A DNA stretch of 64,000 nucleotides from Chloranthus sessilifolius. Its lineage: Eukaryota > Streptophyta > Magnoliopsida > Chloranthales > Chloranthaceae. Shown here in pieces: positions 10,198-60,351 of this stretch. Location of the stretch: assembly GCA_021018995.1 (NCBI GenBank), contig CM037590.1:108563097-108627096 (forward strand), written 5' to 3'. Every line of letters starts with the position of its first letter. The first letter of the stretch is position 1. The translations under genes and the position numbers were made by a program. Below the pieces are notes generated by a model. That model made no database searches. It was not told where the DNA came from and was given only the letters and a program-made list of their open reading frames with translations.

Positions 10198-10295
10198 GGA
10201 AAATTTACCTTATCAACCCTGTCAGATACACCTTTTCCGTCAGAAACGGTATATTTTCACTTTTACCCAAGCCGACTAGCTTCAAGCCTAATTGA
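10198..10295 (+). repeat. MULE left terminal inverted repeat
   Basis: Pairs with 20811-20902. The left copy has a few extra bases after 'ttacct' and several substitutions relative to the right copy. Confidence 0.9.
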
Positions 10296-10710
10296 CTCTA
10301 AAGAGAGTAAAAAATTCAAATTACCCCCTTCTATGACTTTTTTTAACCCACAAAAGCATCAGCTTCTTTCTTATTTTAATTTGCTACAGTTATTAAAAAG
10401 TTAGAGGTGACGAAGGTGACGATGCCTTCTTCCTTAGTCTGATCTGTTATTTGGAAGAAGAAAACAGAGACTTGGGAAAAGAAGCACTTATATTTTGCCA
10501 TTAGGAAAAGAAGACCCTGCTGTTTGTCATTGCGACGTAAGGTATGTTCAGATTATTCAGTGTAAACCCCATTTTCAGTTTGTCAGGGTCTCTTAATGGT
10601 GCAGTATAAGAAATAATTTTATTTTATTGGTCCTCATTTTTAGTTTGTTAGGGTCTCTTAATAGTGCAGTATAAGAAATAATTTTATTTTATTGGTCAAT
10701 TTTTTAAACA

Positions 10711-10859
10711 ATCGATAACGATTGTCTAAACGGTCGATATCGACTGTATAAAGAGTCGATATCGATTCGTTAACCAATCGATATCAACTGATTATACAAT
10801 TGACAGCAATTTTATCGACTCTTTATACAGTTGATATCGATTGTATAAACAATCGATAT
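10711..10859. repeat. 22-bp palindrome array A (5' of the transposase)
   Basis: Twelve-bp palindromic cores start at 10711, 10733, 10755, 10777 and 10799, exactly 22 bp apart, then at 10830 and 10852. The best core is the perfect palindrome GTCGATATCGAC (10733-10744). Spacers are AT-rich. The array lies between the left TIR and the transposase ATG. Confidence 0.95.
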
Positions 10860-12945
10860 GTGTTATCAGTCGTCGTCTCTCTTTTGTGTCATCAGTCTTA
10901 TGACCCATTCCTTCTCATTTTTAAATAGGCGATGTCAGAGATAGATATTCCTCTTCTTTGTCGCTATGATGGCTTTCTTGTAAGCAATGGTGATTTGTAT
11001 GAAGGTGGCCGGCGGAGGATTATTAACATTTCGATGGGTATTTCTTATAAACAATTTATAAAGAGAATGTCCACTGTCAGTTTTGTGAGGGCAGATGAAA
11101 CAGTTTCCATTAAGTTATATATGAAGATAATGAATACCCCTTTGCTTACCAACATTTTGGAGTCTGATGATTTGACCACTATTTACAAAGTCAGGGTGGA
11201 CGTCATAAAGATATTCATCATTAAAGAACCGTCATCCTTTCAAATCGAAGTTGAACAAGTACCTCTTGGCGGGACTGGTTTTGCGAGTAACCATTCCTTT
11301 CAGGCATGTAAGTTTTAGGAGAATGAGCCTATATATGATACCGCACGATTAGACGATGACGACGATATTACGGTGAACATGTCGGCCAGAAAAATAACTA
11401 TTGATTTAAAGGATGCTCTAGTTGAATCATATGATGACCCACTAAAATATATATATGGGTCACAACAATGTAGTCAAGGGTTAGACTACACGTTAGAAAG
11501 GGTGGGGGATACCAACGATTTCAGTTATATCTTTCCCGATGGATGGACAACTTTGTTTACTCACGAATTATGTTCTATCGTTTTATCGATGGGGATTATC
11601 GGAGGAGCTGAACCCCATGTCCATACACAAGAGCACCCCTTCGGTGAAGGGCCTAATCAACCATGTCAGAACCCCTTCGGTGAAGGGCCTAATCAATCAC
11701 ATCAAAACGCCTTCGATGAAAGATCTAGTCAACCACACCCTAGTCATCCTCAACCCACTAATGAAGATAACTTAGAAGAAGATTATGACGGCGAACCAGA
11801 TGGGTTTATAAAAGAGGAGTCGAAGTGTCAGAGGTATTAGGCTACTCTTCCGATCAAGAGGTGGAAACCAAATACCGCAATTGGACGTTTAAATTTGGAG
11901 AGATCTTCAGAGAAAAGCAAACATTCCAAAGAGCATTGAAAGAACATGCGGTGGAGAAAACTTTCAAATCCAGCCCTTGAAAATTGCTAGTTATCGAGTG
12001 ACAGCCGGATGCTACGAACCTAATTGTTCGTAGTGAATACATGCGTCTAAATTCGCCGTGCTCGACTCTTTCAAAATCAAAACGTTCAATAGTACTCACA
12101 TATGCGAGTCGCTAAAATCAGACCGCACGGTCACTATGATGCAACAATCTCCTTCGTAGCCAACTATGTACGGGAGAAACTTATGAAATGATTTGACTAC
12201 ACACCTGCATCGATAATGTTTGATATTACAAAAACTTATAACGTGCAAATCACATATATTAAGGCTTGGAGGGGGAAAGAACTCACCCTAAATTATATTA
12301 GAGGCAGTTGGAAAGGAAAATTTATGGATCTACCGACCTACGTGAAGGAAATGGAGAGGGTAGATCCTAATGTACTAATGTCCTTTCAACTTACGCCTGA
12401 CGGTAAATTTCAAAGATTTTTTTGGGATTTTGGCCCGTGCATCGGAAGCTACCGCAATACACTTCGTCGCATATTGCTTGTAGATAGCACACACCTATGG
12501 AGATATTTTGAAGGGATCCTACTTATCGCTTCGGCACAAGACGGTAATGGCCATCTAGTTATCGAGTTAGAAGAAGAGGATACGTGAATGTAGTTTCTTG
12601 AACGGGTAGGTGCATTCATGATCGGTGAGTTTATCGAAGATTTTGTTATTATCACGAATAGGTCGACGGGTTTAATAAAGGCGGTGACATGGATCTCTCC
12701 TAACGCATTCATAATTATTGTATGCGACATATGACACAAAATTTGGTACACAAGTATTGTAACAGCCGACAAAACTGTGCTTCACTCTATATGTCACACA
12801 ATATTTGGAAAATTGTTTGAAGCATAACATAGCTCATCACACTTTTATGATGATACATCATCATGTTTGACACATAAAGGTGCCAACCCTTTTGATCCAA
12901 CACCCCATCAGTGCATATATAGAAGTGTCAACCACAGCCTGATGG

Positions 12946-13060
12946 CCTTGCCTCAACACCTGAGGCAAGCATAGTGGGCCTCAACACCTGAGGCAAACTC
13001 AGGAGGTTGCCTCAGCCCGTGAGGCAAGTAAACTGTGTTGCCTCAGCACTTGAGGCAACT
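12946..13060. repeat. TTGCCTCAG...CTGAGGCAA palindrome cluster in the solo LTR
   Basis: Four imperfect palindromes of about 21 bp lie at 12948-12969, 12979-12996, 13007-13027 and 13039-13059. All have arms TTGCCTCA/TGAGGCAA around a variable centre, spaced about 30 bp. Confidence 0.93.
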
Positions 13061-13766
13061 ATAATCATTCAATTAAGTTATTTTAAAGTTGGCTTATACA
13101 CGTAACTCGTGTATTAGTTTTATATATAATCCAAATCCTTTTCTTTTGACTTAAATGCATATACAGGTTCAACCAAAATATAAGCTTGATACAGAATTTC
13201 AGCCCAAACAGCTTGTAAGCTGTTTTGTTCGCATATTGCCTCCATGAGCCATTGTTAGACTCCCATGCACGCAAAGTGGAAGCAACCGCTACAAGAGCTC
13301 ACCAACCATCTTCATTCTCCTTCCGTTTTCAACCTTGGAAGAAATCTGAATCCCATTCAACTTTGCACAAACATTAAAACCAGAGAAGGAAGCCTTCTTT
13401 TAGCACTAATTCTCAAGCCCTTCTCTTGTAAACCTCTTGAATTCAAACCTTGAATTTAGAACTTTGAATCCCGAGGTGACCTGCGATTCGAGTAAGTGGA
13501 TTTCGAAGGAAATCGTTGTCGGGGTGCAAACCGAGTTCTTACGAGCTCCGTCGCCAACACACGCTCAATAGCATCGCATCGTCACCACGATTCTTCCAAA
13601 AGGCATGTCGTAAATAATATATATCCAATTTTGGTGCAATATATAGATACAATATATAAGCTTTATATATAAGCTTTATATATATATACAAAATACCTGG
13701 CCAATTGCCTGAGTAAACAAATCCAAAATGGAGCAAAAAACATATCGGCAAGCCCAGCCTGATAGG

Positions 13767-13825
13767 CTTGCCGCGGCAACCTTACAGGCTTGCCGCGGCA
13801 AGGTGCTCAGGCTTGCCGCGGCAAG
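13767..13825. repeat. CTTGCCGCGGCAAG palindrome cluster in the solo LTR
   Basis: Near-identical 14-bp palindromes start at 13767, 13789 and 13812 (spacing 22 and 23 bp), with a fourth at 14017-14029. The core CCGCGG makes them GC-rich islands in AT-rich sequence. Confidence 0.95.
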
Positions 13826-16349
13826 CACTGTGCTCAGACCTTTGGTCAATATTTTGATTATAACTTTTGATCTCAAACTCAGATTGGCATGATTCTTGAT
13901 GCGTTGGAAAGGAGGCAACGAGCCCTACAACTTTTATGAAGGAACAAATTTCTGAATATAATGTTTAAGGGGTCAAAAATTGGTATCAAGTCACAGCAAG
14001 GTCCTCAACAGGAGAGCTTGCCGCGGCAACCCCTATTACTTACCGCGACAACCCTATTTTTGGGCCTCGTTTATACTTTGTGCTGATATGCATGAGGTCT
14101 ATGTGTTTAAGGCCGTAACTCCTATAAGTAAGACCCATCTAGGAGACTTATATAGGTCTATAATGACCCTGGAAACCATTAAAATATACTAAACCTAGGT
14201 ATCTTACACTATAGGTGCCACTTGGTGCACATGACGCGTTTGCTTGAAGACGTGCGTGCACGGGAAATCAGTTTCACGTAAGCCTGGTATAAGGTAGGGA
14301 GATTACCTTGCTGACATATACTTTAGTATTTCATTGCACTTCTGAGTAGCATAATAATTGTATTGTATAGTCAGTGTAAATTGATCATGCTCATGATGCC
14401 TCCATATATTTATTAGTATTTATGTTCGATACATGATCAAGGATTATATGCATCTGAGAATAACTAATAGATAAAGGATGTCCATGATGAGAGGTCCATG
14501 ATTGCATAGTGATGCCAAATTGACAATGATGTATATGGATAATATTAGTACACTCGATACCTATATAAGTGCATGTCGGATTGAACGATGATGATTGATA
14601 TATCTATCGGCCTGGTATAAAATGAAGATTGTCAGTTAGTTTAGTATAGTAGTTATTGTCTACAAGTTTCATGAGTGCATGATGATTTGCAGACCTGATC
14701 TATCTTAGTCTCTATCATGTCTTATTTTCTTCTGATTAGCAGGATAATATAAAAGATGTAGAGATATCTCATAACTCGTGTTAACTAGTATGATGAATGG
14801 TTCCATATATGCTAGTGTAGTTTATGTAAAGATAAAGAAATCCGATAACTAGTGCAAATTCGATATCTAGATCTGATATACGAGAGCATGTCAAAAGATT
14901 GTGCTAAGTACAACTCAGTGATGAACCAGTTTTGATAAAGTTAGTTAACAGAAATACTTTTACCTCACTAAGCTATGCTAGCTAGATGAAATGCCCATTT
15001 AGTTAGTTTTGATGGATGATCTCATATGCTTATTTGAGTTCTAGTTCAATAAATGGTTAGGCATGAAAAAGCTAAATCCAGTTGGATGTATAGTAGTGCA
15101 TGATGATGAGAAAATCAGTTTAGACGTTTGCTTTTGTATCATTATTCATGATGCTTGATGTATAGTATACTGATGATACGATACTTAGGATTTTATTTAA
15201 CTATGCTCATGACAGTATTGCTAAAGATGATAGAGTCAGTTGAAATGACGGTTTTTGAATGACTTGACTCATGATGGTTTTAATGAATAAACATGCTAGT
15301 TTAATTTCGATAAAGGGAAAAGTCAGGCTGTCACAAGTATCCCAGGAGTGGTGTGTTGGATCTATGTTGGAGCGCTGCGCGTGCATATTTAGTAGAGAGA
15401 TTTGATCATTTTATTAATAAAATGAAGAAAGATGTTGCTGATCCTCAAGCCATAGAGTATATTTTTAAAATAGACTCGAAGCATTGGGCACACACATATA
15501 TGAAAGGAAGGCAGTACTATTCCCTGACTACGAATAATGCTGAAAGCTTAAACAACATACTGAAAATAGCTCGAGAGAAACCAATTATTGACTTAATCAG
15601 AACTATTAGAGAGAAAATCACTGATTATTTTCAAAAGCACCGATAAATATTTGAGAAATGGAGCACCATCCTCTGCCCGAAAGTAGACGAGCACATAAAG
15701 AAGGTGTTGCAATGGGCTAGTAGAAAGAGAGGTCAATCATACGGGTGCGATTAATTCCAAGTCAATTATAAAAATTTCATTCATCACGTTGACTTAGAAC
15801 ACAAGACATGTACTTGCCGCCGTTGGCACATTCATAGTTTACCTTACTCGCATGCCGTTGCAACCATCAATCGGAGAAGTTATGATCACCATAACTTCTC
15901 TAAGAAGTGATTTTTCACCGCTTGTTTTAGAAAATCATACGATGAATAATGGCTTCTCACCCTCGATTAAAGCCAATAGAAATTTCAAACTGAGCAATTG
16001 CGGGAAAATATGAAAGTGAGATCACCCTATAATTGTCGAAAGCAAACCGGCCGTCTGAGGAAGAAAATGATACAGTCTAAGGGTAAAATTAGGACCCTAC
16101 AGTGTGGTAGGTGCAGTGAGTATGATCACAATTGCAGGAGTTGCACTACAGAGGGATCGATGGGTTGATAGTATACATGTAATGACGATCGATATCGATC
16201 CATTCAGTTCTTAATAGTGATAGATGGAATATAAATGAGATAATATATATTTGCTCAGAAACTCAGAATTTAATTTTTTTGTTTCGTAATAGTTGTAATT
16301 TTGGATTGTACAGTTGCTCAAAAACATGGAATATGAAATGTACAAAAGA

Positions 16350-16490
16350 GTTGTTGGCGACTGTATATACCGTCGTTGGCGACTGTATATACAATCGTTG
16401 GCGACTGTATATACCGTCATTGCCGACTGTCTAATGAGTCGTCTTCAACTATAAATACAGTCGTCAACGACTATATATATAATCATTCAT
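16350..16490. repeat. 22-bp palindrome array B (between the convergent MULE genes)
   Basis: Cores start at 16350, 16372, 16394, 16416, 16438 and 16460, all 22 bp apart. They are variants of GTCGTTGGCGAC/GTCGTCAACGAC. The array lies between the 3' ends of the transposase and the ULP1-like gene. Confidence 0.95.
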
Positions 16491-17618
16491 CTGACCAAAG
16501 AGATGTTGAAGTCTATCTATTAGCAAGTTAACTTAGTAGTGGTTAAATAATTTACAGTAACAAATTCACATTTCCATGTACACAACTGAAATTTGAATTT
16601 GAATTTACAAATATATAGTTTTGGAACTTACATTACAAATGATCATATATTCAAATTCACAGTTTCATTTACATTACAAATTTGAGGATGGATCCACTTG
16701 TACATCTTCACTAGGGTCCTGGTCAAATTCCCCTCCTCCATCGTTGGTACATTTAGCCAGGGCATGGCCAATTTATGCCTTAAACCTACTAATATCTGGT
16801 TGCGCGAAGTTAAATTTCTTCTCCGACATGAAGTACTCCACATACTTCAATACAAACACCCCATAATCACACGAATTGGTCTGTCGGGGAACGAATTTGG
16901 TCCGGCAGTCACTAGATGACCAAGGATAGGTCTTAAAGTTCAGTGCAGTGGAGTCTCCATATGAACATAAAATTACGAGAATGTAATACTTCTATTTCAA
17001 AATAGTGGAATGTCAAATATGCTAAGCAAACAATGATGAAAAATGTAAGTTTGAACGAATTTGTATAATGATTACTTACCAGTGTTTTCAATTGATTCGG
17101 ATATCTTTCCTTAGAGAGCCTATTAAAAATAGGGTTGATGACCATTACAGATTGTTCGACAATCTTCACGATCGCAAGCGCCCAGTGTAATGATTGTTGA
17201 GAATGAATTGGGACAAATATATGCAAAGAAGAAATATAATCTCAAAGGGTACGATTTGAAAAATTATAAAGATGTTGGTAGCATACTGTGTTATAATTGT
17301 GAGCTCACAGATTTTGAAACAAGTTAAAGAAGAAATTTTGTAGCAACTTCCTGCCTTGGTTCTCTTTGGATTTATGGGCAGGCCATTGTTCGATTTGTAT
17401 CTCGAATGATTCTTCATACAGTTTTTTAGTAAGGAGTTTGTCGAAATCCTTCAGCTCAAAGCTCATGTAGGTCAAAATGGTGGGACACATAAGGAAGCAT
17501 TTCTCCTTTCCGCCAGAATGAATAGTATCATCAATGACTTCCAAGAGTCTTAGGTAGGCTCCCATTATCTGAAACCAATACAGTTACAACGTTAAGCATA
17601 TAAACGACACTCTAAAGA

Positions 17619-17797
17619 GTCGTCAACGGGTCTGTATGTAGTCGTTGATGACTTTCAATAGAGTCGATATCGACTATATAAATAGTCGTCTTTGACTCTT
17701 TATACAATTGATACCGACTCCATAGGAAATCGATATAAAGAGTCGTCGACGACTGAATATACAATCATTAACGACTTTGTATAGAGTTGATAACGAC
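17619..17797. repeat. 22-bp palindrome array C (ULP1-gene intron)
   Basis: Cores at 17619, 17641, 17663, 17685, 17707 and 17729 are 22 bp apart. They shift to 17742 (13 bp), then 17764 and 17786 (22 bp again). Includes perfect palindromes GTCGATATCGAC (17663) and GTCGTCGACGAC (17742). Confidence 0.95.
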
Positions 17798-19216
17798 TAT
17801 ATAAGAGTTGATCTACTGGCTACGGAGTTGTTGACTATTGTCTAGTACTATTTGGTGCTTACAGTAGCACAAATGAGATAATTAAATACATGAGTTGTAA
17901 GGTTACTTTACTTATAATATTATCCAAGTATGTCATGCCCACCAAACATCTGAAAGACTGCACCACCAGCGTATAATCACTGATGGTGCTTACGTAGGTG
18001 CTGCATAAATAACGACCAATGTAGCTAAATAAAAAAAAATAAACTAGGGAAAACTACTAACTAACAATCCTGGGAAGAATGACTTACTCATCCTTAGATT
18101 CAAGTGTGTTCCAGAGGTCCATCATATATTTCTGCTCCTCTGTCGGCTCAGTAGTAGCATCAGCTAGAGGTCCATCAATGGCCCTCTTCGTTACAGGCTT
18201 TTCGTCGTGGCCCCCTTTTGATATATCCTAAGTTTTATGGCAGTTTATTTCATGAGTTTCACTTGCTGAGGTCTCAAGCGAGTGTCAATTTGTTGCTGAG
18301 GCACCACCGTGAATTGGGAAGAGGTTTTCTCATCATCACCTGGACCCTTATCGGCTTGAGACTCGGGCTGCTCATCACCAGCTGTCTCCTCCTCATGCAT
18401 GGGAGGAGATGGTCCTTATCGATGGGCTTTTCCGTGGATGATGGGGTATTGAAGGCTGTGCCAGACACTTTCAATACCAGCTCTGAAATAGCAGCATCCT
18501 GAACATCGAATGTAACATTATTGGAAAGCTGGCTAGAATTATATTCACTTATACAAACTGTGTTACAATACATACCTTAGGTGTCACCTCTAGAATATTT
18601 TCAAGAAGTTCTTTCAGAATCCCTTGGTCCTTTCTGAATAACTTATTGAGGTGAATCATCTTTTGCAGCTCCACATCTCTTGAAGTGAGCCGCTCATTCA
18701 AGGAATTGCATAGTGTCTCTACGAAGTCGCAACATGTCGCAAGGACATCATTCTCTCGCTCTAAATGGCTCACTCTCTGGGTGAGTTTCAAGTTCTCCAT
18801 CACTAGACTGTCGATCCTCCTCAACAACGATTCATTAGAGGAAGTTGGTGCACTTGCGCTCTCCTTCATGCCCCCTAGTTCTCGGCCGCTCTACATGGAC
18901 GAAGCCTTCTTTCGAGAACGATTCTTCGTCCGACGTTGATTGGACGTCAAATTCTTTCTCGTCAATATTGTTGACCAAAATGTAATTTCTCTTCTTCATC
19001 GACCTCACAACCACTTTCACAGATTTCTTGATCAGTTTATGAACCACTTCGTGAACCTCTTTTCTCTTCCCTCAACGACCTTTCGATCCCATAGATATTC
19101 TCGTAGGACGGGTATCTCTAATTCAAAGGCAACCGGTATGAGAGGAGCGCAAACCTTTTGAAAAAAAAGGAAACACCTAAATATCAGATTACTAAATTGG
19201 TAATAGAATATAAATG

Positions 19217-19450
19217 CAAGGTATCGACTCTTTAAGAAGTCGGTATCGACTATTTACAAAGTCGGTATCGACTATTTGCGAAGTCGTTATCGACTATTTA
19301 TGAAGTCAGTATCGACTCCCTAATAGATCGTTATCAACTCTGTACGAGATTGGTATCGACTCATTAGGAGGTCATCATCGACTCTTTAATTTATCGGTAT
19401 CAACCCTTTAAGAAATCGTTATCAACTCGTTAAGTATTTGGTACCCTTAT
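19217..19450. repeat. 22-bp palindrome array D (ULP1-gene intron 1)
   Basis: Cores start at 19239, 19261, 19283, 19305, 19327, 19349, 19371, 19393 and 19415, every 22 bp without a slip. They are variants of GTCGGTATCGAC. The array is entirely within the 364-bp intron 19155-19518. Confidence 0.95.
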
Positions 19451-20441
19451 TCAATCGGCATCGATTCTCTTTACAGTCCTTAACTTTATAAATTTGAATT
19501 ATTAAATAGACATTATACCTTGCTGTTCAACATCTTTCCGAGAGTGTAGCCTTTGATCCTCAATTGCGCCTTCTCCGACCATTTCAACAATCGTGGGAAA
19601 GGGTCCTTAAGGGGTGTCCGTGTAAGCGAGATTTCTAGCAGCATGTCATAAGCCCAATATTGATGTATACATATGCATCCATATGTGTTGTACGACTTAA
19701 AGCCTTTTTTCATGTCAACAGTCTTTCTATTCACCACAACCTTTATTATATACTCGATCAAGTCATGGTACACATGGAAACCCCACGGAGTTCAATTAAA
19801 GTTCTCAACATCATCAATGAGGTCGACGCGGCCTTCCGCCAGTTAATGATGGGACTCGAGAAAAAGAAATATACACAACACAAATAAAAGAGACAACTTT
19901 ACGAAGTAGTCATCACCATTCGCTTGCCTAATTGCACCGTCTATATGAGACCAGAGAATTTTCCCGGTAGGCATTCCATGAAAATATTTGTATCGAATGG
20001 TTTGTTCTTTCGATGGTTTAATGGATGGGGTATACTTTTTGGGGATAACTACGGTAAGGCCCAGTATCAATGCAATGTCCAACTTTCGAAAATAGACATC
20101 AGTCTTCCCGATTCAGAAGTGATTTTTTTCAACCCAAAAAAACAGCATCGCATCGACGACATCTCTAAGAATTCTCACACCCTTAGGCATTTGAAATATT
20201 TCACCGAAAACTAATGCTCTCAGTAACTCCTTTCGCCTTGGGCTAGCATCATCGTAGAGATTCCAAATGCCACTGGGGGAACATTTGGCAATAGCCCGGT
20301 GTACGACCATCGTGGCAACATGTTCAAATGAACTATAATAAAAAGGAAAGGAGTGAGTCTCATACTAACATGGATTGTTTAACTGTTAAATGAACTGTAA
20401 TATATAATCAGGCTGAGATAACGATGTCGCCCATAGAAATA

Positions 20442-20541
20442 GTCGATATCGACTATATATACAATCGATATCGACATGCTATATCATCGATATCGACTCT
20501 ATAAATAGTCGATACTGATTGTCTATACTGTCAATATTGAC
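20442..20541. repeat. 22-bp palindrome array E (5' of the ULP1-like gene)
   Basis: Cores GTCGATATCGAC, ATCGATATCGAC (twice), GTCGATACTGAT and GTCAATATTGAC start at 20442, 20464, 20486, 20508 and 20530, exactly 22 bp apart, between the ULP1-like gene start and the right TIR. Confidence 0.95.
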
Positions 20542-20810
20542 TATATATAAATAACCTTGAAAAATTAATTCAAAATATACACCGTCTAAAGAAGAAGAAA
20601 AAGCTTTACAACAATGGAAGATAATTTTATTTCTAACTTACAGATTTGGTAGCTTGAAGATTCAAAAATGGAGCGCCAGTGACAACGAATCGATACTGCC
20701 TCTCCACTGACTTCGAATGAAAAGTAAAAAGAATTAAATAGTAATGATCTAAATTTTTGACGGCTATTTATTACCTTAGGGGTAATTTTGGCATTTCATC
20801 AAGGTGTGCG

Positions 20811-20902
20811 TCGGCTAGGCTTGGAGCTGGTCGGTTTGGGTAAAGGTGAAAATATAGGGTCTCCGACGGAAAAGGTGTATCTGACGATCAGGTAAATTTC
20901 CC
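20811..20902 (-). repeat. MULE right terminal inverted repeat
   Basis: Reverse complement of the left end, followed by the 9-bp target duplication atttatttt (20903-20911). Confidence 0.9.
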
Positions 20903-21929: not shown

Positions 21930-22600
21930 TCCCATTTTTTTATATTCTTTGCAAAGTTTTTTAATACGGTTTGGACAGTACCTTTATTTCCAACCCAAGT
22001 TTCATCATCTTTGATTGTAAATATTTTCTCTTCCTATCGAGTTATTTTTTTGGGTAATTTAAAAAAGTAAATAAATTTGGAGCTTTTTAATAGAAGCACC
22101 TTTATCTACAATTCAGATTCTTCCTCCTCAATTTCGGTTTAGTTGACAGCTTTCAATCACACGATGGAGATCATTTTCATCTCAATATTCGATGCAATAG
22201 ATCTTGAAATCTTGTGCTTACCATTAGATTGTACATCAACCGTGATTTTGGATCACTTTTGATCAAAATCTGACCCTTTTTTTTCACAATATTTTTATGA
22301 CTTCTTTTATAATATTTTTATGGCATCTTCGCTATATTTTTATTTTCTCTTAACTATTTTTTTAAATTCCTTTATTTTTAGTTATAAAAAATGTTATTCC
22401 AACATCAAAATGAAATGAGTATGTTAATGTTAGGGGACTTTAGAAAATGAGGATTCAAAACGGAAAGTATAAGGACCATATACTGGGCGAGAAAATTTTG
22501 TGATTTAGGGATCCTCATAATACTCGGAGCGCATTGTTTTAGTTTATAAAAGTAATTTTACTTCCCTAACCTTCTACATAGTCACTCTTTCACCCCTAGA

Positions 22601-33206: not shown

Positions 33207-35631
33207 TGTAGACACCCCCATTTTGTCCTCTCAAAATATGCAATTTTGTTCGATCAACCTTTGACCTTATAACCTTGATATGGGAACCATGCACTAAAAT
33301 AATAGTATATGGTTGAACACAGGATGGAATAATAGCTCTATGACTTAGATCCCAACGTAGGGAGACTATATACTGAAATAATAGTATATAGTCGAAATAC
33401 AAACTGAAATAATAGTCTTGCATTTCAGACTAGAGACCAGACCCGGACAACCTCGAATTAAGTGTCTGAAACCCCGCGCGTAATTCGATTACACGATAGA
33501 CCACAAATGCGCAATCAGTCCCCCTTTCAGACCAAACTTTCTTTCCCTATCTCGAGACTCGATCATGCACCTGAAATCAGACGTGTGATCAGATTGCATG
33601 CCTGATCACTAACGCGTAATTGGCCTACTCCCGACCTAGCCTCACAGTCCTTGACCCTTAAGCTTCCTTGATTGAGCGCTTATGAAGAAACGCTTAATCA
33701 GATTACGCACGTACTAACAAGCGCGCAATTAGCCCTAATGCTATTAGGACTAGGAAAATCATTGAGTAAGTCAGTCGGTCGCTCATTGAGTCGGTGACTG
33801 ACTCAAAGCGATTAAGCACCGAGAAACTAGCGCATAATTCAGTTAAACGCTTGGAAAAGGGCACATAATTAGAGAAAAACCTATAAAAGATTTTTTTCCT
33901 AATTCGCTCGAGAGGCTGGACACAACACGAGAGAGAACGGAATTTTTTGGGATTCCGAAACCAAAGAACTTTGAGGACAAACCCATAGAGCAACCTAGTC
34001 ATGATTGCGAGATTCAAGCTTCTAATCTTCGAGATTTCTCTCCGCAGCCCCGGTCCTAGGTAAAAATCTTAGTTTTAGACTTAGGGTATTTTTCATAGCT
34101 TTGATCATTAGTTTTAGTCATAGATTTTAATTTTTAATCCGAGACCGTAGCACCCTTTTTAGACCGCAAATATTTAATACCTAGTTCTAATTCTTCGAAT
34201 TCAGAACCAGTCTTTAATCCAACAGTCTAATTTATCAACCCTAGGCTTTAATTCCTCTCTAAAATCTTAATTTCCAGTTCTATCATTAATTTCTTGTTCT
34301 AATCCTTGGATTCCAGAACTAGTCATTAATCATACGGTTTGATTTTCAAATTTCAGACCCGAATTCAGTCCTATAAATCTAGATTTTAACTTTAATTCCT
34401 TATTTTAATATCTCCAAAAATCCTAAATATTAATTTCAGTTTCTATCATTCTAGTTCATAACTTAATTCATAATTATTATTCCGAAATCAATTCCAAAAC
34501 ATCTAAAATACTATTTTATCATCCAAAATCCAATTTATCTTCAATCTCAGCCACCCAATTTGCTTAAGGAAGCTTACGGAGGGTCCTCGGGAATGAGGCC
34601 AATCCTCCTTAGCATAGCGGGCCCAAACCCCTTTTTTTTTAAGAACTTTAGGATTAATTAATTTTTTTTTTTTTTTTTAGTATAATTAATTAGTAGATTT
34701 ATTTTATTTCGGCATAATTAATTAATTAAGTTAATTGGATTTTAGTATGATTGATTAATTTCTTTAAATCAAATTTTAATTGGTTAATTTCTCGTTTTAA
34801 TTAGATTTTTAGTATAGATAATTCATTGCTGTGATTAGAATTTTAATAAAATTAGTTTATTTATTTTAATTAGATTTTTAATAAAATCAGTTTATTTGTC
34901 TGAATTAGATTTTAATAAAAGTTAATTTGTTTGCCTTAACTTAGAGTTTCAGTAAAATTAGTTTTCTATATCAATCAGAATTCTAGTAAGACTGTTATAC
35001 TTGATTTAATTAGAATTCTAATACAACTAGTTTACTTGCTCTACTTAGAATTTCAGTATCACTAGCATGCTTGACTTAATTAGAGTTTTATCAAGACTAC
35101 TACATGAGCACTCCTAGTATAATTGGGAAACCTGATCATAATTGGACTTCTAATAGTATGAGGACACTTAATTAATTAGACTTTCAATCGGGATAGGAAT
35201 AGTAAAAATTAAGTAGACTCTTGATAGAACTAGAATATTAAATTAAATAAACTACAATAGATCACCACACAACCAAACTCACAATAGAATCAGGAAAGTC
35301 TAAACTGATCAGAACTATAATTATAAAGAGAAATAAAAGGGAAATTAAACTATCTAAATTAAGAAAAAGACATAGCTGCTGACGTTCGCTGGCGGATGAT
35401 TCAGTATAGAAGTAACCCATACCCGCTCTTAGGCGTGATCATTGACCTGCTGCAATATCGATAAATATCTATAGCTGGCGATCGCAATAAACTAGGAACC
35501 TTCCTAGAAAACCCCTTTATTTTTTTACCTCCACTATTCCAAACGCCGCATCGTTAGAGTCCACTTAGACAGAATTGGAGCCACAGATTCAACAGGAACC
35601 AAGAGGAACCCAGAAAAAGCGTGCACCAACA
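33207..35631 (+). mobile_element. 3' LTR of element A (2,425 bp)
   Basis: Starts tgtagacaccccc and ends gtgcaccaaca. It has a TATA box (ctataaaag, 33881-33889), two GAAATAATAG-type modules upstream of it, and a 3' half with a repeated ~34-bp CTCCTA...TAGGAG palindrome. A PBS-like TGGCGATCGC lies at 35476-35485, about 155 bp before the end. Confidence 0.85.
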
Positions 35632-39571: not shown

Positions 39572-42277
39572 TATAGACACCCCTATTTTGCTCTCTTGGA
39601 ATATACAAATTTGTTCGGTCAACTTTTGACCTCATAACCCTGATATGGGACCATATGCTGAAACAATAGTATATGGCTGGACACAGGCTGAAAAAATAGC
39701 TTTGTGGATCAAGCCCCATACTCCCGACGTGGGAATCATGCACTGAAATAATAGTACACGACTGAATACAGGATGAAACAATAGCTCTGTGGCTTAGATC
39801 CCGACGTAGGGAGACTATATACTGAAATAATAGTATTTAGTCGGAATGCAGACTGAAACTATAGTCTCGCACTTCAGACCCCTTCATCCTAATGTAGGAC
39901 CATATATTGAAACAATAGTATATGACTTGACACAGGCTAAAACAATAGCTCTGTGGCTTAGGCCCCATATCCTCGACGTGGGAACCATGCATTGAAACAA
40001 TAGTACATTGCTAAACACAGGTTGAAACAATAACTCTGTGGCTTAGTTCCCAACGTAGGGAGACTATATACTAAAACAATAGTATAATGTCGAAATGCAG
40101 GCTAAAACAATAGCCTGGCATTTCAAGCTCGACCCGGACTCGAAAAACCCTGAATTAAGCACCTACAACCAAGCGCATAATTCGATAGCACGTAAAACCA
40201 CAAAAATGCGCAATCAGTATCTTCTCAGACCAGACTTCCTTTCCCCAGACTAACTCGAGACTCGATCATGAGCCTGACACCAGACACACGATCGGATTGA
40301 GCGCCCCATCACCGGCGCGCAATTGGCCTATGCCCGACCTAGCCTCACTGTCCTTGACCCCTAAGTTTTCTCGATTAAATGCTTTGAGAGTGGCGCTTAA
40401 TTGGATTACGCACCTCAAAATAGGTGCGCAATTAGTTCTAACGCTATTAGGACTAGGAAACTCATTGAGCAAAGTCAGTAGTCGCTCATTGAGTCGGTGA
40501 CCGACTTAAAGCGATTAAGCACCGAGAGACCAGCACACAATTTGATTAAATGCCTGAAACAAGGCGTTTAATTAGAAAGAAACCTATAAAAGATTTTTTT
40601 CTTAATTCACTCGAGAGGCTGGCAATTTTGGAGAGAGAACGAATTTTTTTTTGGGATTCCGAAACCAGAGAACTCTGAGGACAAACCCACAGAGTAACCT
40701 AGTCATGATTTGGAGATTCAAGCTTCGAATCTTCGATGATTTCTCTCCACAGCCCCGGTCTTAGGTAAAAATCTTAGTTTTAGACTTAGGATATTCCTCT
40801 TAATTTTAATTATATGTTTTAATTTTCAGTCAGAGACCGTAGCACCTTTTTAGACCATGATTTTTTATATCTGGTTCTAGTTCTCCGAATTTAGAACCAG
40901 TCCTTAAATCGACGGCCTAATTTATCGACCCTAGGCTCTAATTCCGTTATAAAATCTTAATCTCCAGTCCTATCATTTATTTCTTATTCTAATCCTTCGA
41001 TTCTAGAATTAGTCCTTAATCATATGGTCTAATTTTATGATTTCGGACCCGAATTCAGTCCTAGAAATTCAAATTTTGATTTTAATTTCTTATTTTAATA
41101 CCTCCAAAAATCCTAAGTATTAATTTTAGTTTGTATAATTTTAATTCTCAATTTAATCCATAATTATTACTCCGAAATCGACTCTGGAAAATCTAAAAAT
41201 ACTATTTTATCATCATAAATCCAATTCATCTTCAATCTCAGTCACCCGATTTACCTAAGGGAGCTTACAGAGGGTACTCGGGAACAAGTCTAATCCTCCT
41301 TAGCATAGCGGGCCCAAATTTTTTTTAGAATTTTAGAATTAATTAATTGCTTTTCTTATCATTTTAGTATAATTAATTAGTAGATTTATTTTATTTCAGC
41401 ATAATTAATTAATTAAGTTAATTAGATTCTAGTATGATTGATTAATTTCTTTAAATCAAAATTTTAATTGGTTAATTCATTGCTCTAATAAGAATTTTAA
41501 TCAAATTAGTTTGTTTCCCTTAATTAGATTTTTCTATTTTATTCATATAACATTAATTCATTGCCTAAATTAGAATTCTAGTAAAATCAGTCTTCTACTT
41601 CAATTAGAATTCCGGTAAGACAACTATACTTGATTTAATTAGAATACAACTAGCATACTTGCTCAAATTTGAATTTCAGTATAACTAGCATGCTCGATTT
41701 AATTAGAGTTTCACCAAAACTACTACATGTGCACTTCTAGTACAATTAGGAAACCTGACCACAACTAGACTTCTAATGAGATTAGGAGACTAAAATTAAT
41801 CAGACTTCTAATAGGATTAGGACACTTAATTAATTAGAATTCTAGTAGTGCTAGGAAACTAAAATTAATTAGACTCCTGATAGAATTAGAATACTAAATT
41901 AAATAAACTATAATAAATTTCCACATAACTAAACTCATAATAGAATTGGGAAGTCTAAACTGATCAGAATTATAACAATAACGGGAAGGGAAGGAAGATT
42001 AAACTATCTAAATTATAAGAAATGACATAGCTACTGACGTTCGCAGGCAGACGATTCAGTAAAGAAGTAACCCATACCTGCTCTAAAGCATGATCATTGA
42101 CGTGTTGCAGCGTCATTAAATATCTGCAGCTGGCGATCGTAATAAACTAAGAACCTTCCTAGAAAACTCTTTATTCCTAACACACCAAACGCCGCATCAC
42201 TAGAGTCCACTTGGACAGAATTGGAGCCACTGATTCAACGGGGACCGAGAGGAACCTAGAAAAAGCGCGCACCAACA
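39572..42277 (+). mobile_element. 5' LTR of element B (2,706 bp)
   Basis: Starts tatagacaccc (canonical tgtagacaccc with G to A) and ends gcgcaccaaca, followed by a primer-binding site. It is longer than the other copies, mainly because a 250-bp U3 segment is tandemly duplicated (39649 and 39899). The TATA box ctataaaag is at 40584-40592. Confidence 0.88.
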
Positions 42278-46945: not shown

Positions 46946-49033
46946 TGTAGGTACCCTCATTTCGCCCTCTCGGAGTACACAAATTCGTTTGGTCAGCCCT
47001 TGACCTTTTTAACCCTCGACACGGGACCATGCAGCAGTACATGGCTGAACACAAGCTGAAATAATAGCTCTGTGACTCAGATCCCAACATAGGGAGGCTA
47101 TACACTAAGCAATAGTATATAGTCGGGATGTAGACTAAAACAATAGTCATGCATTCCATTCATGAGACCATACTCGGACAACCCTGAATTAAGTGCCTGA
47201 AAACTCATGCGTAATTCGATCACGCGCAGAATCACAAGTGCGCGATCAGTCCCTTTCAGACCAAACTTTCTTTCACATACTATTTCGAGACTCGATTATG
47301 CCCCTGGAACTGGATGCACGATCAGATTGAGCGCTACACTATCAACGCGCAATTGGCCTATGCCTGACCTAGTCTCCTACTCTTGACCTCTACGTTTCCT
47401 TGATTAAGTGCTTCAGATAACATGCTTAATTAGATTACGCACGTCCCATCACGCGCACAATTAGTCCTAATTTTGTTAGGACTAGGAAACTAGCTGAGTA
47501 ATTCAGCCAGTCGCTCACTGAGTTGGTGACCGACTCAAAGTGATTAAGCGCTAAACTGGCGCGTAATTCAATTAAATGCTCGAAAATAGGCGCGTAATTG
47601 AAGGAAAACCTATAAAAACTCTTTTTCTCGACGAGAGATAGAGAAGGCTACAAAATTTAGAGAGAGACCATAAATTTAAAAGACTAGAGAGTTCTTATGA
47701 GCCCCTAGAGCCATGATTTTGAGATTCGAACTTCGAGATTTCTCTCTGCAGCCCCGACCCTGGTAAGAATTTTATTTTATTTTAGACTTAGGATTTCCCT
47801 TTAGTTTAATTAATCAATTATATTTCTAATTTTTAGACCGTAGCACCCTCTTTGAACCGAAATTCTCTATATCCAGTTCTAGTTCTGTTTCTAGAACCGG
47901 TCCTTAATCTAGCGATCCGACATACCGACCTTATGCTCTGATTCTACTTTAAAATCATAATTTACAGACTTATCATTAATGTCTGGTTCTGACTCTCAGA
48001 GTTCAGAACCAGCCCTTAATCATATGGCCTATTTTTTCTGATTTCGGACCCGAATTCAATCATAAATTACTAATTTATAATTTAATTCTATATTTTCATA
48101 CCGTTAAAAATTCAAAAAAATATAAATTTCAGTTCATAACTTTAGTTTCTCAGTCTAATTTCTTATTATACTTTCGAATTCAATTCTAAAAATCCCCCTT
48201 TTATTATTTAACTATCGATCTCTCTTTTATCTCAGCCATCCGATTTGCCCACGGGAGCTTACGGAGGGTACTCGGGAACGAGGCCAATCCTCTTTAGCAT
48301 AACGGGCCACACTCTCCTTTTTTCCATCTATTTATTTTGTTTAATTTTATTTCAATAAAACTAGCATGCTTATTTAAAATCAGAATTTCCATAGAATTGG
48401 CATATTTAATTTAGTTAGAGTTTTATTCAAATCAGTACAATTCTAATCAGTCATAACATAATTAAGAACGGTTGTATTCCTAGTACAATTAGGGGACTAA
48501 TATTAATTAGACTTCTAATAGGATTAGGAAACTAAATTAGTGGGTTTAAATTAATTAGACTCCTAGTGAGATTAGGAGACTTAATTAAATTAGACTCCTA
48601 GTAGAATTAGGAGACTCTTTCTTAATCAGACTCCTAGTAGGATTAGGAAATTAAATCAATCAGACTCCCAGTAGGATTAAGAGACCAAATTAAATAAAAT
48701 TCCAGCAGGAATAGGAAAACTAAACAAGTTATACTAAAGGCAACCCACAGCTGCTGACGTTCACCGGCCGACGATTCAGTAAAAGAGTTCAACTTGCAAG
48801 CCCTTGCTTCCCTTTAAAGCGTGATCACTGACGTGTTGTAGTGTCGATAAATATCTACAGCTGGCGATCGCATTTTATCAGGTATTCTTCATTTAGAATC
48901 TGCCTCTTTAATTTTAGCATTAATATTTTCTAATTTATTACTCCATCATCGCCATTGCCAGAGTCCGCTTAGGACAAAATTGGGCCACTGGTTCCGAGGA
49001 CCGGAAGGAACGCAAAAAAAGCGCGCACAAACC
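46946..49033 (+). mobile_element. 5' LTR of element C (2,088 bp)
   Basis: Starts tgtaggtaccctc and ends gcgcacaaacc. TATA box ctataaaaa at 47610-47618. PBS-like TGGCGATCGC at 48862-48871, 171 bp before the end. Confidence 0.88.
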
Positions 49034-58223: not shown

Positions 58224-60351
58224 TGTAGACACCCTCATTTCGCCCTCCCAGAGTACACGAATTTGTTTGGTCAGCCCTTGACCTTTTTAACCCCTGACAT
58301 GGGTCCATATAGTAGTTCATGGCTGAACACAAGCTAAAACAATAGCTCTGTGGCTCAAATCCCAACGTAGGGAGGTTATACACTAAGCAATAGTATATAG
58401 TCGGGATGCAGACTGAAAGAATAGTCTTGCATTCCATTCTTGAGACCATACCCGGACAACCCTGAATTAAGCACCTGAAAACCCGCATGTAATTCGATCA
58501 CGCGTAGAATCACAAGTGCATGATCAGTCCCTTTCAGACCAAACTTCCTTTCACAGACCGTTTTGAGACTCGATTACGCGCTTGGAATCGGACACACAAT
58601 CTGATTGAGCGCTGCACTATCAGCGCGCAATTGGCCTACACCCGACCTAGTCTCCTACCCTTGACCCCTACATTTCCTCAATTAAGCACTTCAGGTAACA
58701 CGCTTAATTGGATTATGCACGTCCCATCATGCATGCAATTAGCCCTAATTTTGTTAGGACAAGGAAACCCATTGAGTAATTCAATCGGTCGCTCACTGAG
58801 TCGGTGACTGACTTAGAGTGATTAAGCGTTAGAAAACTGGCGCGTAATTCAATTAAATGCCCAAAAACAGGCACGCAATTAAAGAAAAACCTATAAAAAC
58901 TCTTTTTCTCAAAGAGAGAGAGAAGGCAGAAAAATTTAGAGAGGAGAGATCGTAAATTCAAAAAACTAGAGAGTTCCGAGAGCAAACCCCTAGAGAAAAT
59001 TAGCCATGATTTTGAAATTCGAACTTTGAGATTTCTCTCCTCAGCCCCGACCCTAGGTAAGAATTTAATTTTATTTTAGACTTAGGACTTCCCCTTAGTT
59101 TAATTAATCAATTCTATTTCTAATTTTTAGACCGTAGCACCCTCTTCGGACCGAAATTCTCTATATCTGGTTCTAGTTCTTTGCTTCTAGAACCAGTCCT
59201 TAATCTAGCGGTCCGATATATCCACCTTATGCTCTGATTTTACTCTAAAACCATAATTTACAGTCCTATCATTAATGTCTGGTTCTGAATCTCAGAGTTC
59301 AAAACCAGTCCTTAATCATACGGCCTAATTTTTCTGATTCCGGACCCAAATTCAATCCTAAATTTCTAATTTATAATTTAATTCTATATTTTCATACCGT
59401 CAAAAATCCAAAAAAATATAAATTTCAGTTCATAACTTTAGTTTCTCAATCTAATTTCTTATTATACTTTCGAATTCAATTCTAAAAATCCTTCTTTTAT
59501 TATTTAACTATCGATCTATCTTTTATCTCAGCCATCCGATTTGCCCACGGGAGCTTACGAAGGGTACTCGGGAATGAGGCCAATCCTCCTTAGCATAATA
59601 GGCCACACCCTCCTTTTTTCCGTCTATTTATTTCGTTTAATTTTATTTCAATAAAACTAGCATGCTTATTTAAAATCAAAATTTTTATAGAATTAGCATA
59701 TTTAATTTAGTTAGAGTTTTATTCAAATCAGTACAATTCTAATCAGTCATAACATAATTAAGAACGGTTGTATTCCTAGTACAATTAGGGGACTAATATT
59801 AATTAGACTTCTACTAGGATTAGGAAACTAAATTAATTAGAGCTCTAATAAGATTAAAACGTTTAAATTAATTAGACTCCTAGTGGGATTAGGAAACTTA
59901 ATTAAATTAGACTCCTAGTAGAATTAGGAGACCCTTTCTTAATCAGACTCCCAATAGGATTAGGAAATTAAATCAATCAGACTCCCAGTAGGATTAGGAG
60001 ACCAAATTAAATAAAATCCCAGCAGGAATAGGAAAACCAAACTAGTTACACTAAAGGCAACCCACAGCTACTGACGTTCACCGACAGACGATTCAGTAAA
60101 GGAGTTCAACCTGCAATCCCTCGCTTCCCTTTAAAGCGTGATCACTGACGTGTTGTAGCATCAATAAATATCTGCAGCTGGCGATCGCATCTTTTCAGGT
60201 ATTCTTCATTTAGAATTTGCCTCTTTAATTTTAGCATTTAATATTTCCTAATTTATTACTACATCATCGCCATTGCCAGAGTCTGCTTATGATAGAATTG
60301 GGCCATTGGTTTCGGGGATCGAAAGGAACCCAGAAAAAGCGCGCATCAATA
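58224..60351 (+). mobile_element. 3' LTR of element C (2,128 bp)
   Basis: Follows the polypurine tract. Starts tgtagacaccctc and ends gcgcatcaata. TATA box at 58891-58900. The PBS-like TGGCGATCGC is at 60179-60188. The duplicated target ggaag follows at 60352-60356. Confidence 0.9.

Follow-up and report, generated by a model that had tools for sequence, protein, structure and literature searches.

Phased, near-palindromic 22-bp arrays in a Mutator-like element of Chloranthus sessilifolius: putative docking lattices for a VANC-like protein encoded antisense to its transposase

What are the short, regularly phased repeats that fill the non-coding parts of a decayed Mutator-like element (MULE) in the genome of Chloranthus sessilifolius? 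The element lies in a 64-kb stretch of contig CM037590.1 (the window, whose positions serve as coordinates throughout), and genome searches covered the 2.17-Gb genome, 32 contigs. It is bounded by terminal inverted repeats (TIRs) and holds a MURA-type transposase gene and a second gene antisense to it; by its gene content it is an Ulp1-carrying MULE. We propose that the repeats probably act as docking lattices for a VANC-like protein encoded by this second gene.

The element (10198-20902) contains 38 cores grouped in five clusters, located where a preliminary description of this DNA had placed about 35, and the 22-bp start-to-start spacing that it had reported as almost invariable is borne out: of 33 distances between neighbours, 30 measure exactly 22 bp, the other three being 31, 13 and 39 bp. 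Autocorrelation, the check it had proposed, puts lag 22 at the top of lags 8-59 in all five clusters and, for the whole element, at 4.5 standard deviations (sd) over lags 5-99. The 22-base pattern RTCGNTANCGAYTNTNTANANA, sought on both strands with up to three mismatches, matches 61 times in the window, 60 of them inside the element and a single isolated one in the remainder, against an expectation of 2.1 and a maximum of 7 in dinucleotide shuffles. Chance repeats are ruled out by the lag-22 signal, the regularity of spacing and the shuffle counts. A lone perfect core, ATCGATATCGAT, stands outside the five clusters at 16188-16199, directly past the transposase stop.

The strong columns of the unit read TCG..TA..CGA in the core and T.T.TA.A.A in the spacer, and both parts are dyad-symmetric. 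In the cores 141 of 204 pairs are complementary (55 in letter shuffles, 0 of 5000 reaching the observed number), and in the 10-bp spacer 95 of 170 (59.5 in shuffles; again 0 of 5000). Perfect palindromes make up only five of 34 cores; symmetry is a property of the consensus, single cores often being imperfect. Compensating change is not demonstrated by them: when partners were shuffled, the observed pairing was reached in 42 of 2000 trials over all 42 units and in 441 of 2000 within clusters. The earlier statement that palindromy and period are kept thus stands for the period and for the symmetry of the consensus, not for palindromy core by core. Cores are homogenised by cluster, with an identity of 0.736 within clusters and 0.663 between them (0 of 1000 permutations). 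The changes that they carry are one-sided: among 136 half-site CpG positions there are 21 changes, all of them C>T or G>A. The corresponding figure at the outer positions, compared with GTCG/CGAC over 34 units, is 38 of 40, and is the less clean of the two because position 1 varies between G and A throughout the family. This decay of the window copy points to past cytosine methylation.

Are the arrays peculiar to this copy? Relatives were chosen by terminal repeat rather than by motif: a DNA search with the left TIR gave 2165 first-look candidates, of which 40 were scored, yielding 30 loci—the window copy and 29 relatives. At least two exact cores lie within 1.6 kb inside the TIR in 28 of the 29, and together the relatives have 110 cores in 47,346 bases inside against 1 in 43,500 flanking bases. 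The relative without cores, L029, retains the TIR and ~330 bp of the MULE, after which an unrelated repeat starts ahead of the array. By eye, this intruding repeat resembles one at 39648-40125 of the window. Counting exact cores, 25 of 29 relatives have core distances that are multiples of 22, a figure that rises to 28 when cores may have one mismatch; a pair exactly 22 apart occurs in 26 of 29. Overall, of 162 distances between exact cores no more than 140 bp apart, 125 are multiples of 22. With exact cores and lag-22 regions recurring across relatives, a satellite limited to the window copy, expanding there by chance as the preliminary description had allowed, is ruled out.

The arrays grow and shrink in 22-bp steps: the first array differs in length among the 26 copies that were aligned (the window copy being one of them), and 13 of these lengths share one remainder modulo 22, some alignment rows being clipped at the alignment borders. 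Pairwise difference between copies is 0.191 in half-sites, 0.156 in the centre, 0.28 in the spacer and 0.389 at the outer purine/pyrimidine (R/Y) positions; at CpG it is 0.259 in half-sites and 0.295 in flanks (8 flank sites). Measured in this way the core is better kept than the spacer, and the whole array is not better kept than its flanks.

A second sample was drawn by motif. The genome holds 1734 copies of GTCGATATCGAC, 21-fold more than of its backward control (81), and 20 windows of 10 kb (L001-L020) were taken from 50 listed places that carry it. The second gene or the transposase is matched in 15 of the 20, and one of these or a TIR in 19, L007 having neither family protein nor TIR; a family match within the same 10-kb window does not place every core inside an element. 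Multiples of 22 account for 860 of 1007 exact-core distances up to 140 bp. After low-complexity filtering there are 104 tandem regions at lag 22, 98 of which hold at least two cores with one mismatch allowed, against 7 or fewer at any other lag between 15 and 40. The majority over 535 units from the 20 loci gives a family unit RTCGATATCGAY + TGTATATACA, two palindromes with centres 11 bp apart, in which only positions 5-8 and 13-22 are independent, the scan pattern RTCGNNNNCGAY having imposed symmetric half-sites. With the transposase as guide to orientation, near mirror images are seen in the spacer and outer R/Y columns but not in columns 5 and 8 (A 0.49 vs T 0.67), half-site symmetry again being fixed by the scan. 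Selection on palindromy is unsupported by these 535 units, in which complementarity at the inner pairs falls short of that in shuffled data: 179 instances against 211 (sd 9.5) for pair 5-8, and 397 against 409 (sd 4.7) for pair 6-7. The array pattern had no exact match in viral and prokaryotic contigs.

Members of the family that lack coding matches carry the arrays as well. Seven short TIR-bounded stretches of this kind, 0.66-1.44 kb with approximate limits, were found; six have at least two exact cores and at least one spacing of 22 bp, and the seventh has no core. Target-site duplications (TSDs) matching at 9 of 9 positions flank L001, L008, L014 and L018, four of the ten elements with printed flanks; the remainder are unclear or without.

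No core of the window copy (0 of 38) lies in coding sequence. The preliminary description had said as much, and erred in assigning arrays to two introns of the second gene; in the gene model there are three, clusters 3, 4 and 5 all being intronic. Exon 1 of this gene is short (23 residues match L006 at 87%) and cluster 5 comes after it. Of 200,000 random placements of the five blocks in the window, four were coding-free, a test that is partly circular because the arrays were known when the introns were delimited. Core counts in the 15 motif-sampled loci where a family protein is matched form a better one: 8 cores in 53,453 coding-matched bases (tblastn) against 385 in the 42,937 other bases of the spans, the latter including diverged exons without a tblastn match.

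Which proteins might read such arrays? In the window copy the transposase matches PF03108 at 1e-4 (under cut-off) and PF04434 at 5.2e-4 (over cut-off), with PF10551 not reported; the relative L014 gives PF10551 (MULE domain) at 1.2e-18, PF03108 (DBD_Tnp_Mut) at 9.9e-16 and PF04434 (SWIM) at 1.2e-9. A CCHC-type knuckle was seen by eye, with no Pfam report of it. Within the transposase gene a tandem 36-bp repeat (11635-11737) encodes 12-residue peptide repeats (NPFGEGPSQPCQ-like), in relatives too.

The second gene is antisense to the transposase in the window and in the relatives that have both genes. Its C-terminus in the window copy carries an Ulp1/C48 domain (PF02902, 1e-10), and weak zipper-type matches hint at a coiled coil. 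At E up to 1, the exon-2 proteins of the window copy and seven relatives show DUF1985 in 8 of 8 (best 2.9e-7) and PMD in 7 of 8 (best 4.5e-8); by these scores the exon-2 domain is near both. At the position expected for the catalytic Cys of Ulp1, 9 of 12 alignable relatives have Cys and 3 have Tyr. The window copy has Tyr too, which would fit a G>A change. Across eight elements the unit profile diverges with exon 2 (Mantel rho 0.83, 14 of 5000). Genome-wide, DUF1985 gave 4046 first-look candidates, and all 150 that were scored exceed the cut-off. Many of them lie in open frames 200-300 aa long, and the genome possibly holds many intact VANC-like genes; 14 control genomes had none of these candidates. 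Neither protein has relatives at E 1e-3 in a general protein database, which therefore seems to lack such plant proteins, and a PDB search gave no match up to E 10.

Taken together, the arrays are likely protein-binding sites. The preliminary description had proposed a binding array for a transposase or a host protein. A binding array does seem the best reading; the protein most likely to occupy it is one that the description had not named, the product of the element's second gene. We infer the identity of this binder, the cooperativity of its binding and a loss of methylation as the effect, as follows. The antisense-gene product, with its DUF1985/PMD-type domain, coiled coil and Ulp1-type domain, would occupy the 22-bp units cooperatively, along a single face of the helix; it would do so at every non-coding part of cognate copies, non-autonomous ones included; and the bound protein would counter DNA methylation there, letting the element escape silencing. 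Judged by layout, gene content and family-wide arrays, the element appears to work like a VANC system.

Several observations weigh against this reading. The window copy is dead. Its DUF1985 match has an E of 0.048 (14.1 bits), and that of one A1 member reaches 24.5 bits, against a cut-off of 35.1; PMD scores on the exon-2 proteins too. Half-sites, at 0.191, are CpG-rich but not more conserved than non-array flanks (0.146 and 0.148), and three relatives with at least two exact cores each (L036, L044, L049) have no multiple of 22 among them. Common descent alone may suffice to explain the co-divergence of unit and gene. The TIRs of VANDAL elements are degenerate, whereas those of this element are long, and the motifs of VANC21 are described as lying in the same orientation, whereas the units of this family are nearly symmetric. 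The VANC21 motif YAGTATTAY occurs nowhere in the element and four times in the remainder of the window; for the VANC6 motif the count is two in each. On these counts the arrays were rejected as VANC21- or VANC6-motif arrays proper.

The alternatives fare less well. A neutral or selfish 22-bp satellite, spread within the family by slippage and purged from exons only where it breaks the frame, would account for copy-number shifts in 22-bp steps, for homogenisation within arrays and for arrays that are no better conserved than their flanks. It is unlikely nonetheless: one near-symmetric unit keeps its phase throughout the family and in five distinct parts of a single element, 22 is alone among lags 15-40 in behaving so, half-sites vary less than spacers despite their CpG content, and the remaining window has only one isolated match.

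Binding of these internal sites by the MURA-type protein itself, whether to assemble the transposition complex or in auto-regulation, is decidedly improbable. Known MURA sites lie in TIRs; here the arrays fill introns and intergenic space, no match to the 22-base pattern lies within the TIRs of the window MULE, and sites in the other gene's introns would have no evident use in transposition. What speaks for the transposase is its MuDR DNA-binding domain, together with hypomethylation in TIRs brought about by maize MURA, as noted in PMC10398659.

Array transcripts, being self-complementary, might instead yield double-stranded RNA that feeds or decoys RNA-directed methylation. RNA from parts of all five arrays does fold better than shuffles (z -4.2 to -11.4; 7 strands, both strands of two), but the folding is largely a consequence of a dyad-symmetric tandem unit; a hairpin role leaves the strict 22-bp phase and the cores unexplained, feeding silencing would harm the element, and we consider the idea very improbable. 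The least probable is an enhancer role within the element, in which the CpG-rich dyads would be bound by a transcription factor or insulator protein of the host. Common as dyad symmetry and helical phase are among the sites of dimeric DNA-binding proteins, such a site ought to turn up elsewhere as well, whereas GTCGATATCGAC is 21-fold over control with a family TIR or protein in 19 of 20 windows, and the unit profile tracks the second gene.

The layout on which docking by the VANC-like protein is argued is set out in Table 1.

Table 1. Features of the decayed MULE, with the insertion nested in it, in window coordinates.
Feature	Position	Strand	Evidence or remark
Decayed MULE, whole, TIR-bounded	10198..20902	+	Terminal repeats and flanks; 9-bp TSD ATTTATTAT / ATTTATTTT, 8/9 matching
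Left TIR	10198..10290	+	Printed terminal repeats
Array 1, 5' of transposase gene	10701..10863	.	Includes 47-nt inverted duplication 10715-10761 / 10813-10859
Transposase gene part 1, decayed MURA-type, MuDR DNA-binding domain	10932..12757	+	PF03108
Nested insertion resembling a solo long terminal repeat (LTR), not part of the MULE	12758..15335	.	TGTAACAGCC...GGCTGTCACA termini; 5-bp duplication AGTAT
Transposase gene part 2, SWIM zinc finger	15336..16168	+	Plus CCHC-type knuckle read by eye
Array 2, between 3' ends of both genes	16350..16481	.	
Antisense second gene, limits approximate	16773..20800	-	DUF1985/PMD-like exon, putative coiled coil, C-terminal Ulp1/C48 domain
Array 3, second-gene intron	17619..17807	.	
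Array 4, second-gene intron	19217..19475	.	
Exon 2 of second gene, DUF1985/PMD-like region, three in-frame stops	19519..20332	-	
Array 5, first intron of second gene	20432..20551	.	Preceded by exon 1 matching L006
Right TIR	20816..20902	-	Inverted repeat, 70 nt at 89%

The inverted duplication in array 1 (10711-10858) folds as RNA to -64.2 kcal/mol (z -11.4) and is a possible small-RNA source. The transposase gene is split by the solo-LTR-like element of ~2.6 kb, which has palindrome arrays of its own: TTGCCGCGGCAA at 22-/23-bp spacing around 13766-13829 and again near 14016, and copies of GCCTCA...TGAGGC spaced 28-31 bp apart at about 12948-13066. Outside the MULE, a 22/23-bp tandem repeat (ATATTTTTATGGCATCTTAACT) without the core lies at 22288-22364, and four arrays of ~34-35 bp are found at 34794-35053, 41766-41909, 48546-48693 and 59774-60035, the units of the last three being clearly related (TCCTAGTAGGATTAGGAAACTAAATTAATTAGAC-like) and those of the first seemingly so by eye.

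Should the docking explanation be correct, sequence-specific anti-silencing by long phased lattices would exist also outside Arabidopsis, in MULEs that keep long TIRs, and a single genome would supply a natural set of protein-array pairs from which to learn how a transposable-element protein evolves with its target. Strict phase and near-symmetry lead to a predicted binding geometry that is directly testable, and the arrays could be easy annotation markers for VANC-like genes and their non-autonomous passengers. More tentatively, and with rather more doubt than trust, we raise the possibility that these elements form a distinct anti-silencing branch: TIR-bearing, Ulp1-carrying MULEs whose protein would recognise a 22-bp unit with two dyads and could thereby coat the arrays without a break along one face of the helix, at two dyads for every two turns. 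Each family would have its own unit, changing along with the protein. Anti-silencing lattices would then not be bound to degenerate TIRs, and this genome, with its thousands of DUF1985 candidates, would hold many parallel protein-array pairs.

How, then, does the element compare with systems already described? The preliminary description knew of no MULE feature like it, and this does not hold. According to PMC5735166, VANC proteins of Arabidopsis VANDAL elements bind short tandem-repeat motifs in introns, intergenic and terminal non-coding regions, and contain DUF1985 and DUF287; in that paper and in PMC10398659, VANC proteins strip methylation from cognate VANDAL copies. PMC12312487 mentions a VANDAL, probably non-autonomous, that carries repeats of the VANC6 type. 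The systems share a MULE, a second gene with a DUF1985-type domain (a putative one here, near PMD too), and arrays of short motifs in introns, intergenic space and terminal non-coding parts, with the motif largely confined to the cognate family and with array copy number and sequence changing between subfamilies. They differ in that the motif here is unrelated to YAGTATTAY and AGTTGTMC, in that the unit is nearly symmetric and keeps a strict 22-bp phase over tens of units, and in the long TIRs; the activity of the present system is a predicted one. We do not class the element as a VANDAL because its TIRs, at ~90 nt, are neither degenerate nor missing. A 2022 study of VANC systems in eudicots reportedly names DUF1985, DUF287 and Ulp1 in its abstract as domains gained or lost, and helical motif periodicity as a determinant, which would bring the present case closer still. 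Some group-45 relatives of VANDAL do have TIRs, according to PMC6446971.

The Spm protein TnpA acts at many short sites, which are subterminal. An element-encoded protein, many short sites and a link to methylation loss are what it shares with the present case, in which introns and the middle of the element are filled instead. For TnpA of this CACTA element, demethylation is mentioned in PMC10398659. Closer in gene content are the Kaonashi/KIU MULEs of Arabidopsis, melon, grapevine and rice, which share an Ulp1 (C48) domain gene; this gene is antisense to mudrA in Arabidopsis KI-MULEs and lies in TIR-MULEs in grapevine and melon (PMC2528002). VANC genes that carry Ulp1 (KIU) have a motif class of their own as target, as reviewed in PMC13317346, and 22-bp dyad arrays are not described in the passages of the two papers that were searched. 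Beyond the VANC work we found no earlier description of 22-bp dyad arrays in the largely open-access literature searched, and a symmetric unit, strict phase and retained long TIRs did not appear in the portions of VANC texts that were searched. The arrays thus look like a kind already known as the targets of VANC proteins, in which the near-symmetric, strictly phased unit, set in MULEs that bear TIRs, appears to be new.

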